A DNA stretch of 48,105 bases from a virus: the IMG/VR virus record IMGVR_UViG_3300008459_000079, positions 1 to 48,105 of that record. One strand, written 5' to 3'. The number at the start of each line of letters is the position of its first letter. Position 1 is the stretch's first letter. The position numbers were made by a program, and so were the translations under genes. Below, in pieces: positions 36,799-46,758 of this stretch. The notes below the pieces were generated by a model, which saw only the letters and a program-made list of their open reading frames with translations, had not been told where the DNA came from and searched no databases.

Positions 36799-36960
36799 AT
36801 GCCAGTATCAAAACAAAGAAAAAATCAAAAGAAAAAAAGTACCGCTAGAACAAATAGATTAAAGACTGAGGCCAAAGTAATTACTAAAAAATTCTTAGAG
36901 AATTATAATAAGGTTATGGAAGCTAGAAATAAATCTGTTGAATCTAAAACTGAAGAATAA
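36799..36960 (+). CDS. 53-residue basic microprotein upstream of the GMP-reductase-like gene
   Basis: This frame encodes MPVSKQRKNQKKKSTARTNR followed by 33 further residues ending in SVESKTEE. The first 25 residues are strongly basic, the rest helical and mixed-charge. Its TAA overlaps the ATG of the next gene (TAATG at 36958-36962), indicating coupled translation. The gap after the previous gene is 30 bases of AT-rich sequence including TATATTTA. The basic N-terminus would suit nucleic acid or ribosome binding. It is too short for common gene-finding cut-offs. Function unknown. Confidence 0.6.
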   Translation: MPVSKQRKNQKKKSTARTNRLKTEAKVITKKFLENYNKVMEARNKSVESKTEE

Positions 36961-38048
36961 TGCATTTTATTAACAATTTGGAATCACCTAAGTTTGATTT
37001 CCATGATATTGCTTTAGTTCCATCCATACTATCAAAAATAGAATCAAGGACTGAAGTTAAAATACCATACCCACTTCCGTTGATGGCATCTCCAATGAAC
37101 TCTGTTTTATCAATTAAAAAAGAAAACAGATTTCATGAAGAGTTTTTAAACTACTTGTTAAAAGAAATGATGGTCTGTGTTCCAAGAAATTACGAATACA
37201 GTACATATACTGAATTATTTAAATATAGTAGTTTAAATAAAATGATGTTTAAGTCAATATCATTACAAGAATTTAGATTAATTGAAACACATTTTGATAC
37301 ATTTCAAAATCTTATACTTGATTCTGAGTGTATTCTTGTTGATATTGCTAACGGTCATATGCGTAAACTTTTAGATTTGTCTAAAATCTTTATTAAAAAG
37401 TTTAAAGATAAAAAATTAATGATTGGTAATATTGCTAATCCTCACACATATGATGAATTTTCTAAAATTGGTGTCCATTATTGTCGTATCGGTATTGGTG
37501 GTGGTAGTGTTTGTACAACAAGTGCTAATGCTTCAATTCATTATCCAATGGCATCATTGATTTATGAGTGTGCTAGAATAAAACAAGCAAATGCACATAA
37601 ATCTCTAATTGTAGCTGATGGTGGATTCAAAAACTTTGCTGACATTATTAAAGGTCTTGCTCTTGGTGCTGACTATATTATGCTTGGTGGAATTCTAAAT
37701 AAATGCTTAGATTCCGATTCTCATCCATATCTTTGGAAAAAATTTAAGATTACCAATATGTCTTTAGCCAAATGGCTTTATAAAAATAAATTTTCATTAT
37801 ACAAAAGGCATGTTGGTATGTCCACAAAAGAAGTACAAAAGATTTGGGGTAATTATAAACTCAAAACATCTGAAGGTATTGCCAAATGGAATAAAGTTGA
37901 ATATACCTTTGATGGATGGATTGAAAACTTTAATGATTACTTGAAAAGTACAATGAGTTATTTGAATTGTACAAATTTGGAAGAATTAAAAGAAAGGGCT
38001 ACCTTTGCATTCATTACCGAAAATTCATTTAGGAGATTTCATAAATAA
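36960..38048 (+). CDS. IMP dehydrogenase / GMP reductase family enzyme
   Basis: A 362-residue (beta/alpha)8-barrel enzyme of purine interconversion. Landmarks are VDIANGHMRKLLDL (127-140), MIGNIANPHTY (154-164), the catalytic loop GIGGGSVCTTS with nucleophile C185, and the phosphate-binding VADGGFKNFADIIKGLALGA followed by DYIMLGGIL. Usual family members have GIGPGS, so the Gly for Pro change is a small deviation. With no CBS pair and 362 residues it is closest in size to GMP reductase (347), which converts GMP to IMP. IMPDH activity, the opposite direction, cannot be excluded. It is coupled to the upstream microprotein and is 5 bases before DNA polymerase. Confidence 0.82.
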   Translation: MHFINNLESPKFDFHDIALVPSILSKIESRTEVKIPYPLPLMASPMNSVLSIKKENRFHEEFLNYLLKEMMVCVPRNYEYSTYTELFKYSSLNKMMFKSISLQEFRLIETHFDTFQNLILDSECILVDIANGHMRKLLDLSKIFIKKFKDKKLMIGNIANPHTYDEFSKIGVHYCRIGIGGGSVCTTSANASIHYPMASLIYECARIKQANAHKSLIVADGGFKNFADIIKGLALGADYIMLGGILNKCLDSDSHPYLWKKFKITNMSLAKWLYKNKFSLYKRHVGMSTKEVQKIWGNYKLKTSEGIAKWNKVEYTFDGWIENFNDYLKSTMSYLNCTNLEELKERATFAFITENSFRRFHK

Positions 38049-44977: not shown

Positions 44978-45727
44978 ATGGAAAAATTTGAAATATATCC
45001 TGACACTCTTCCATTTAGTGTAAATTTTGAAGATGCATTGAAATCTTGCAAAATATTAGGGGATAGTTGGAGATTACCAACTAAAGATGAATTAAACGAA
45101 ATGTTCAAAAACCATAAAGATAAATTGGGTGATTATGGTGTTTGGTCTTCAACTGAATATAATAATGACTATGCCTGGTCACAAGGATTTACAACAGGTA
45201 ATATTTATATAAACCCTAAAACTAATGTTAATAGAGTTAGACCTGTTAGAACTCTAACCTCAGAACTATACGGTCCTGATAGAGGTAGAGATTGGTGGGC
45301 AAATTTAACACCACCTTTAGCACCTTCTGATAATGATGCTTCAATATTTAAAGATTATCTATTAAATGGTACTACACTCTTACTAGGTTGTACTAAAAAC
45401 TTAATACCTTTAAGCGATGCACAAATGGATATAGACCCTTGGTATGTTGCTGATACTGTAATCACACAAGATTGGACAACTAATACTAAATTCTACGATA
45501 ATATTATTGGTGATGGTGTATTAAACTTAGATAAAGAACTTGCTGAAAAAGTATTGGATATGTGTTATAAACATTGTGATAATTTTGTTGTAAGATGTTT
45601 TAATAGGAAACTACCAAATATGACAGTTGCTTCACATTTTCCAAATAAAAAAGACTTTCTTATTCCTCCAACAATAATTGAACAATTTGATGAATACACA
45701 TTTTATATTTGGAATTTTTATAAATGA
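44978..45727 (+). CDS. DUF1566 (Lcl-type) domain fused to a SAM-methyltransferase-like domain
   Basis: The protein has 249 residues. Residues about 25-92 form a DUF1566/Lcl-like C-type-lectin-type fold: SWRLPTKDELNEMFKNHKD, VWSSTEYNNDYAWSQGFTTG and the closing NRVRPVRTL. A linker with DRGRDWWANLTPP leads to residues about 130-249, which read as a class I SAM-binding Rossmann domain: motif I TTLLLGCTKNLIPLS (132-146), an acidic end MDIDPW (150-155), QDWT (164-167) and YDNIIGDGVLNL (173-184). The substrate is unknown. It overlaps the adenylate-forming gene downstream by ATGA, so the two products probably act together. Confidence 0.7.
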   Translation: MEKFEIYPDTLPFSVNFEDALKSCKILGDSWRLPTKDELNEMFKNHKDKLGDYGVWSSTEYNNDYAWSQGFTTGNIYINPKTNVNRVRPVRTLTSELYGPDRGRDWWANLTPPLAPSDNDASIFKDYLLNGTTLLLGCTKNLIPLSDAQMDIDPWYVADTVITQDWTTNTKFYDNIIGDGVLNLDKELAEKVLDMCYKHCDNFVVRCFNRKLPNMTVASHFPNKKDFLIPPTIIEQFDEYTFYIWNFYK

Positions 45728-46758
45728 GTATAAATGAAAAAATAGCATCCGATGTTCAAAGATTATTAACATACTTTGAGCAATCTCAATGGATTCATAA
45801 TGTTGATTATAGTATCTTAAAAGATTTAAAAATAATCACAAGAGAAGACTTGAGAAATATTAAAATGGAAAAGCAGTTTTATAAATGCAAAACATCAGGT
45901 TCAACAGGAGAACCTGTAAGTCTTGAAAAAACTTATGCTGACCTTGTTTGGTATATGGCAACCAATATTAGAGAATTAAGATGGAGAAAATGGGATGTAT
46001 CAAAGAATATTGCAATTATAAAATTTGATTCAAAACCAATAGTAAAAGATTCTTGGGGTATTCCAAAGTCAATTGAACCAATACAAGGTAAAACATTTAT
46101 AAATCATTATCTATCAATATCAGAATTACAATCCTGGCTTGAAGAAGTTAATCCACATTATATTCAAGCAATACCATCCATTATATCTCAATTAGATTTA
46201 TCAAAAATAACAAACTTAATTGATTATAAAGGAACAGGTGAAGTAGGTGGTTCAATGTATTCTAGTGAAGAATGTGGAACAATAGCAATACAATGTCCTG
46301 ATAATCCATCATTTATGCATGTGATGGAAAATATTATTATAGAAGTTGAAGATGATGGTGCTTTAATTATAACCTGTACAACAAATCCATATATTAAAAG
46401 ATATAAACATGGTGACCATATTGAATTAGGAGAGTGTACTTGTAAAAGACAATTACAAACTATTAAAAAAATTAATGGAAGAGTAAGAAATATGTTTGTT
46501 CTACCAAATGGTGATAAGAAATGGCCTCTAATTGGTGCTAAAGATTTTTATGAATTGTTTAAAATTAAAAGATATAAAGCAATTCAAACAACCATAAATG
46601 ACTTAGAACTTCATATAATTGCTGAACCATTAGGTGAAAAAGAAAATGAATTAATTAATCTTGTTCAAAAATATTTAGTTTCACCAATCAATGTTCAAAT
46701 TAAATATGTTGAGAAATTTACAGATTATAAATTTGAAGAATTTGTTTCATTGGTTTAA
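45724..46758 (+). CDS. Compact adenylate-forming enzyme (PaaK/CapK-like, ANL superfamily)
   Basis: The protein has 344 residues. The ATP-binding A3 loop is TSGSTGEP (57-64). A SEECGTIA segment (181-188) takes the place of the acidic adenine-pocket motif, YKHGDHIELG (227-236) matches A7, and KINGRVRNMFVLPNGD (249-264) matches A8. Such enzymes activate a carboxylate as acyl-AMP and pass it to CoA, an amine or a carrier protein. It is shorter than phenylacetate-CoA ligases (about 430) but has a recognisable small C-terminal lid domain. It starts in an ATGA overlap with the methyltransferase-like gene. No carrier protein is visible nearby. The substrate is unknown. Confidence 0.75.
   Translation: MSINEKIASDVQRLLTYFEQSQWIHNVDYSILKDLKIITREDLRNIKMEKQFYKCKTSGSTGEPVSLEKTYADLVWYMATNIRELRWRKWDVSKNIAIIKFDSKPIVKDSWGIPKSIEPIQGKTFINHYLSISELQSWLEEVNPHYIQAIPSIISQLDLSKITNLIDYKGTGEVGGSMYSSEECGTIAIQCPDNPSFMHVMENIIIEVEDDGALIITCTTNPYIKRYKHGDHIELGECTCKRQLQTIKKINGRVRNMFVLPNGDKKWPLIGAKDFYELFKIKRYKAIQTTINDLELHIIAEPLGEKENELINLVQKYLVSPINVQIKYVEKFTDYKFEEFVSLV

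Follow-up and report, generated by a model that had tools for sequence, protein, structure and literature searches.

A two-gene locus in a probable fragment of a tailed-phage genome

The window, by which we mean the whole stretch of DNA analysed here, is a 48-kb virus record. It encodes NrdA and NrdB (named by reading of the sequence), a family-B DNA polymerase, ThyX and a MazG-like protein, and this gene set makes it look like a fragment of a bigger tailed-phage genome. The DNA polymerase gene is adjoined by a gene for a 362-aa IMPDH/GMP-reductase-like protein (36960-38048; PHROG 'dehydrogenase', E=6e-49). A preliminary description of this DNA had counted the phage among those of Bacteroidetes; the Bacteroidota promoter motif TAnnTTTG is not enriched in the window, lying upstream of just 2 of its 38 genes, and so lends that guess no support.

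The locus under study consists of two genes, gpA and gpB, in which the gpB start codon (ATG at 45724) overlaps the gpA stop codon (TGA at 45725-45727). Their features are as follows.

44978..45727, + strand: gpA, an Lcl_C/DUF1566 domain followed by a compact class I SAM-methyltransferase-like domain, 249 aa (ORF, Pfam, structure)
44978..45253, + strand: Lcl_C domain (DUF1566, C-type-lectin-like clan), residues about 1-92 (PF07603)
45275..45724, + strand: compact methyltransferase domain, residues about 100-249 (AlphaFold2, Foldseek, alignment)
45371..45394, + strand: motif I region TTLLLGCT, at the position of the SAM-binding loop (L136, G137 and T139 invariant in 29 homologues, full-length methyltransferases included)
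45425..45442, + strand: MDIDPW, end of strand 2, including the acidic residue usually in contact with the SAM ribose (D153, in at least 90% of the 29 homologues)
45509..45517, + strand: GDG motif of strand 4 (D179 invariant in the 29 homologues)
45724..45727, + strand: ATGA stop-start overlap linking gpA and gpB (sequence)
45724..46758, + strand: gpB, compact PaaK/CapK-type adenylate-forming enzyme (ANL), 344 aa (ORF, profiles to 4r1l and long ANLs, weak TIGR02304)
45892..45915, + strand: A3 P-loop TSGSTGEP, residues 57-64 (S58-G62 invariant in 28 homologues)
46258..46278, + strand: A5 region YSSEECG (E182 and E183 invariant; aligned with long ANLs, themselves aligned with 4r1l)
46402..46416, + strand: A7, YKHGD (D231 invariant)
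46477..46491, + strand: A8, GRVRN (R253 and N256 invariant)
46726..46743, + strand: A10-like YKFEEF (K336 invariant; matched by hhalign to the lysine of the GK in full-length homologues)

Both reading frames and their overlap are present as the preliminary description had them, and every motif it quoted (LLLGCT, DIDPW, TSGSTGEP, YKHGD and GRVRN) was found. The ANL residues S58-G-S-T-G62, E183, D231, R253 and K336, which cover the ATP/Mg-binding positions and the A10-type lysine, are identical in 28 of 28 non-redundant phage homologues, and on such alignments we regard the quoted motifs as conserved rather than chance occurrences. Neither protein matched an anti-phage defence model in PADLOC, and we dropped membership of a known defence system as a reading.

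gpA carries a compact methyltransferase fold

The C-terminal 150 or so residues of gpA match no Pfam or PHROG family at a confident score. AlphaFold2, supplied with a 29-homologue alignment, modelled residues about 100-249 as a class I SAM-methyltransferase fold with pLDDT mostly 91-98, and a Foldseek search of the PDB with this domain returned mainly class I SAM-methyltransferases at probability 1.0, the nearest folds being 8bij, ChlM (4qdj) and CypM (7wzg). The closest viral models were two uncharacterised proteins of uncultured Caudovirales, A0A6J5KQB2 and A0A6J5T1K0, with TM scores of 0.95 and 0.91 on target. W166 and R206, like L136, G137, T139 and D179, are invariant in the 29 homologues, which span full-length enzymes; D153 is altered in the lineage of two phage loci, L027 and L029.

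Relative to the full-length methyltransferases, the compact domain has lost about 11 residues around the SAM-binding loop that follows strand 2, together with the whole substrate insert of about 75 residues. It keeps LGxT and D153, but the adjoining loop is missing and there is no classical GxGxG; full-length homologues, too, have LGVTPE here. Given the lost loop and substrate region, the compact domain may not methylate.

At the other end of gpA, residues 19-91 match the Pfam family Lcl_C (PF07603) with E=9.6e-11 and 42.4 bits against a gathering score of 34.9, and AlphaFold2 confidence over this part is low. The preliminary description had treated the fusion of Lcl_C to a methyltransferase as the defining object at this locus. 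That view was not supported: the fusion is present in no other fetched homologue, and no relative of the gpA Lcl_C domain was found in the other fetched loci or, at the sensitivity used, in viral_contigs. We therefore dropped Lcl_C as a recurring component of the system, and the fusion, confined to this window, looks secondary to the gene pair. In one other phage locus, L051, a fibre-like gene adjoining the pair and sitting among collagen-like tail-fibre genes has an Lcl_C domain (E=1.4e-7, slightly below the family cut-off). The simplest reading is that gpA captured an Lcl_C domain of this fibre kind; the two domains are not closely similar. A different fusion occurs at L017 (5332-6438), where the compact methyltransferase carries an N-terminal FkbM methyltransferase.

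gpB is a compact PaaK-type adenylate-forming enzyme

gpB has no Pfam or PHROG match of its own at a confident score, and its only NCBIfam match is to the F390 synthetase-related family TIGR02304 (8.5e-4, 18.4 bits against a cut-off of 251.9). It nevertheless contains the full set of features that mark ANL enzymes, namely the A3 [ST]SG[ST]TG, the A5 Glu, the A7 Asp, the A8 Arg and the A10 Lys, and E183 aligns to the position of the Mg-binding Glu of PaaK. The AlphaFold2 model of gpB was poor (pLDDT 59) and was not put into Foldseek, so the fold assignment rests on profiles. A profile of the compact ANLs matches the solved PaaK structure 4r1l at E=7.4e-4 and aligns to the profile of the long ANLs over 315 columns (hhalign probability 100, E=4.7e-44); the full-length phage relatives in turn match 4r1l at 2.4e-24, as well as 2y27, 6siw and AjiA1, and the BagE/FevW synthetases are also among the closest families. 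By these comparisons gpB is a compact PaaK-type ANL. Both fold assignments made in the preliminary description, a class I SAM-methyltransferase in the C-terminal part of gpA and a PaaK-type ANL in gpB, are thus borne out.

C191, H199, C238 and C240 of gpB are invariant in the 28 non-redundant homologues and might form a metal site between the halves of the protein. A genome-wide, pattern-limited scan of 84,980 species genomes found no cellular relative of the compact ANL.

The methyltransferase and the ANL form a conserved unit in phages

We scanned IMG/VR with the methyltransferase domain and with the ANL alignment. The compact ANL was found on 42 IMG/VR contigs, which together with the window gave 28 non-redundant sequences at 95% identity. 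All 28 have the methyltransferase on the same contig, and in 24 it lies directly upstream on the same strand, with gaps between the matches of -19 to +57 nt. At L017 another methyltransferase gene stands between the two, at L027 and L029 the methyltransferase is inverted relative to the ANL, and at L032 it lies about 6.4 kb away. Three loci (L005, L009 and L010) have the methyltransferase without the ANL. L009 and L010 have the same methyltransferase as their relative L003 and a flanking GT2-like gene that is 96% identical, with the ANL cleanly missing between the two; as this flanking gene is kept, the ANL was lost or gained locally.

With L027 and L029 left out, methyltransferase and ANL distances also correlate, with a Mantel r of 0.66, and none of 2000 permutations gave a value as high. 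L027 and L029 retain a close relative of the ANL next to a highly divergent methyltransferase, which was either re-paired or is evolving fast. The pair is a real conserved unit, and it occurs in dozens of large freshwater phages. The preliminary description had proposed that the two genes are coupled, which would be contradicted by homologues that are never adjacent; with adjacency in 24 of 28, the proposal survives, and the same conserved pairing backs its suggestion that the enzymes act together, presumably on one substrate.

Full-length counterparts in further phages and in bacteria

A second group of phages (L066-L070 and L079) carries the pair in full-length form, with the genes again overlapping; here the methyltransferase is about 255 aa long and reads LLLGVTPE, and the ANL has about 430 aa. 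A genome scan with the full-length ANL returned 68 bacterial loci, 15 of which have the same methyltransferase directly adjacent, and at L168 it lies 3.2 kb away. The full-length pair also occurs in Alphaproteobacteria, Betaproteobacteria and Chlamydiota. In Burkholderiales, related ANLs without the methyltransferase, mostly in tandem (L127, L128, L130, L138, L142 and L148), lie just downstream of a gene that on reading is putatively of the ornithine/lysine/arginine decarboxylase type.

In a 119-row ANL tree the methyltransferase-paired ANLs group together (50 of 54 rows paired, SH-aLRT 99), forming essentially one clade. Long phage ANLs group with Aestuariivirgaceae, and four compact ANLs from Chlamydiota make up the sister group of the compact phage clade, with support of 100. 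Given the long branches, this Chlamydiota link is provisional; the methyltransferase tree did not repeat it, and relatives are rare in Chlamydiota, where 3 of the 116 genomes have one, in one case as a weak match.

Four of the long-clade phage contigs have the gene order YhhQ/Vut_1, methyltransferase, ANL (L066 2355-5005, L067 2351-5002, L069 2371-5104 and L070 2252-5011). Directly downstream of this cluster, L066 (5062-8660) and L067 (5059-8660) carry by eye a curli-like set comprising CsgF, CsgG and repeat subunits. In the same two contigs a small protein resembling HhH-GPD base-excision glycosylases (L066 1080-1496, Pfam E=1e-4; L067 1052-1492) adjoins a second methyltransferase in the cluster.

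Surface-type genes recur beside the pair

On reading, the pair has a fibre-like or sugar-transfer gene as a near neighbour, no more than a few genes away, in about three quarters of the 28 phage loci, although the neighbour classes (fibre, adhesin and sugar transfer) were picked post hoc. Examples are a DUF5122 propeller and short tail-fibre-like proteins (L029), an RCC1 propeller (L004), a GT92 glycosyltransferase (L032), collagen-like fibre genes (L051), an FkbM gene (L017), and a TylF-type methyltransferase with a sulfotransferase (L018). No obvious gene of either kind lies near the pair at L002, L041, L015, L057, L062 or L065. One GT2-like family is common to phage loci (L003, L009-L011 and L055) and bacterial ANL loci (L135 and L141). 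GT2 genes as a class were present in 13 of 15 related records, a set that is pair-related throughout and offers no pair-less phages for comparison.

In bacteria, the most specific link is to autotransporters. An autotransporter gene (PF03797) directly adjoins the module in Chlamydiota L164, L165, L168 and L169 and in alphaproteobacterial L117, and those genomes hold totals of just 3, 3, 3 and 7 such genes; at about one gene per kb, the chance that a given module would touch an autotransporter should be well under 1%. Common ancestry is possible for the four Chlamydiota cases, two of which come from a single genome, so that they represent one to three events, with L117 in addition. The other bacterial neighbours encode a secreted collagen-like protein (L111), an adhesin of the RTX/cadherin type (L129), a transporter of the ShlB/FhaC type (L114), outer-membrane barrels (at L105 and at L110) and a sulfotransferase (L122). 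Alphaproteobacterial copies of the pair often have only housekeeping genes around them.

A generic enrichment of exported proteins among the immediate bacterial neighbours failed by a crude signal-peptide test (11 of 37 against 29 of 134, p=0.21, not significant). Because of this, the surface link rests on the specific neighbour classes and, for the autotransporters only, on genome counts, and we present it as a supported hypothesis, not a result.

Proposed function and alternatives

We favour, with a confidence that is about evenly balanced, the reading that the pair is a two-enzyme tailoring module, combining acyl activation with methylation, that acts on a surface protein or glycan. gpB would use ATP and a carboxylic acid to form an acyl-adenylate and would pass on the acyl group, in the simplest case with an amine or hydroxyl of a sugar or side chain as the nucleophile; the gpA methyltransferase domain would methylate either that acceptor or the group it receives. 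Phage fibres, or a glycan of the host or of the phage, would carry the product, and the related bacterial modules would act on autotransporters, on collagen-like, RTX or two-partner adhesins, or on their glycans. Amide- and ester-forming PaaK-like enzymes are known, as in the chemistry of BagE/FevW and AjiA1, and therefore neither CoA nor an acyl carrier protein is needed. The preliminary description had remarked on the lack of an acyl carrier protein: none is encoded in the 48-kb window, as it said, although this proves little for a genome fragment, and two of the 15 related records, of 323 kb and 251 kb, do contain a PP-binding domain above cut-off. In each case this domain is far from the pair, and we set the acyl carrier protein aside as a partner. 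Surface decoration was one of several options in that description and fares best among them; the exported-neighbour test counts against it.

The pair could instead work on soluble molecules, the ANL making an acyl-CoA or an amide or ester of a soluble acid and the methyltransferase methylating it, to yield a metabolite or signal that aids infection and has no surface target. PaaK-type ANLs classically form CoA thioesters, and gpB finds its nearest matches by structure and family in phenylacetate-CoA ligase 4r1l and the BagE/FevW synthetases; the loci without surface-type neighbours and the isolated alphaproteobacterial pairs also fit such a role. We consider it unlikely, since autotransporter, adhesin, fibre and glycosyltransferase neighbours recur and no other metabolic gene was seen to accompany the pair across phages and bacteria. 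A serious rival, if a rather improbable one, concerns the methyltransferase itself, which might be a degenerate, non-methylating Rossmann domain that serves as partner or regulator of an ANL that alone catalyses. The two deletions in the compact domain, the loss of D153 in L027 and L029, and a gene overlap of the kind seen in translational coupling would all be explained by this reading. Against it, the motif I loop, D179, W166 and R206 are invariant even across the full-length homologues and D153 is kept outside L027 and L029, which suggests that ligand binding has been retained.

Two further readings concern other chemistries. The preliminary description had listed DNA bases among the possible acceptors, and one way to realise this is a 7-deazaguanine-type hypermodification of DNA or tRNA in which the pair acylates and methylates imported preQ0 or preQ1. 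YhhQ is a preQ0 transporter that some phages encode (PMC6884629), and the long-clade gene order described above, along with FolE and QueD within 5 kb downstream in L070, would suit this scheme. Vut_1 scored above cut-off in 4 of 26 records, all outside the compact clade, whose 21 searched records gave no such match; QueD occurs in 1 of 26 records, the pair of L068 has no YhhQ, and YhhQ is found at no bacterial pair locus within the fetched flanks. With QueD and YhhQ as the genes searched, we rejected the 7-deazaguanine link for the compact clade, the base-modification proposal has little support, and we judge this reading very improbable for the pair as a whole, although the long-clade phages possibly put the pair to a separate use, in the chemistry of queuosine precursors. 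Least probable of the readings considered is that gpB transfers AMP or GMP to a hydroxyl in the manner of coenzyme F390 synthetase and activates no carboxylate. TIGR02304 is indeed its sole NCBIfam match, yet the score falls far under the cut-off, the A10-type lysine of acid-activating ANLs is invariant among gpB homologues, and the long homologues match PaaK-type ligases better.

Returning to the surface-tailoring module, a wider version of it is that the fibres of large phages and the adhesins of bacteria (autotransporter, collagen-like or RTX) share one undescribed surface modification, in which an ANL-activated carboxylate is combined with methylation, and that it is made by a mobile two-gene cassette which phages have reduced to a minimal form. 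This we offer tentatively, as a possibility somewhat doubtful in its full extent.

Significance and relation to known systems

If the surface-tailoring reading is true, phages and bacteria would have in common an undescribed way of decorating their adhesive surface proteins or glycans, and this would bear on how receptors are bound and hosts recognised. The autotransporters beside the Chlamydiota modules and fibre clusters like that of L051 provide concrete proteins in which to seek the modification. Whatever the substrate, the pair is a compact and widespread enzyme system overlooked by the Pfam and PHROG libraries, and its ANL is a small adenylate-forming enzyme that retains the full set of active-site motifs. 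We found no prior description of a phage PaaK/CapK and methyltransferase pair in the literature searched; both enzyme folds are already known, and it is the coupled, reduced pair and its spread that we did not find in those papers or in the families scanned.

The closest known relatives of the gpA domain, A0A6J5KQB2 and A0A6J5T1K0, are the same compact methyltransferase at 45% and 36% identity, but are 147 aa long and lack Lcl_C. More broadly, the domain shares the Rossmann methyltransferase fold of class I SAM-methyltransferases of the Methyltransf_11/25 type, and its motif I, GDG motif and C-terminal strands align with full-length LGVTPE-type methyltransferases, whereas its core of about 150 aa is without their post-strand-2 loop and substrate insert. 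The Lcl_C part of gpA resembles, by Pfam and NCBIfam match, the Lcl_C/DUF1566 domains of collagen-like adhesins and phage fibres such as Legionella Lcl; in gpA it is joined to an enzyme, and in Lcl-type adhesins to a collagen-like stalk. gpB, finally, has the A3, A5, A7, A8 and A10-like motifs in common with PaaK/CapK-type enzymes (phenylacetate-CoA ligases 4r1l and 2y27, the PaaK-like ligase 6siw, AjiA1, BagE/FevW and TIGR02304), as well as a C/H...CxC cluster. It differs from them in length, with 344 aa against about 430, an N-terminal part and a stretch before A5 having been deleted, and the compact ANL, unlike these enzymes, is without a Pfam match and always has the methyltransferase alongside it in the phage contigs found.
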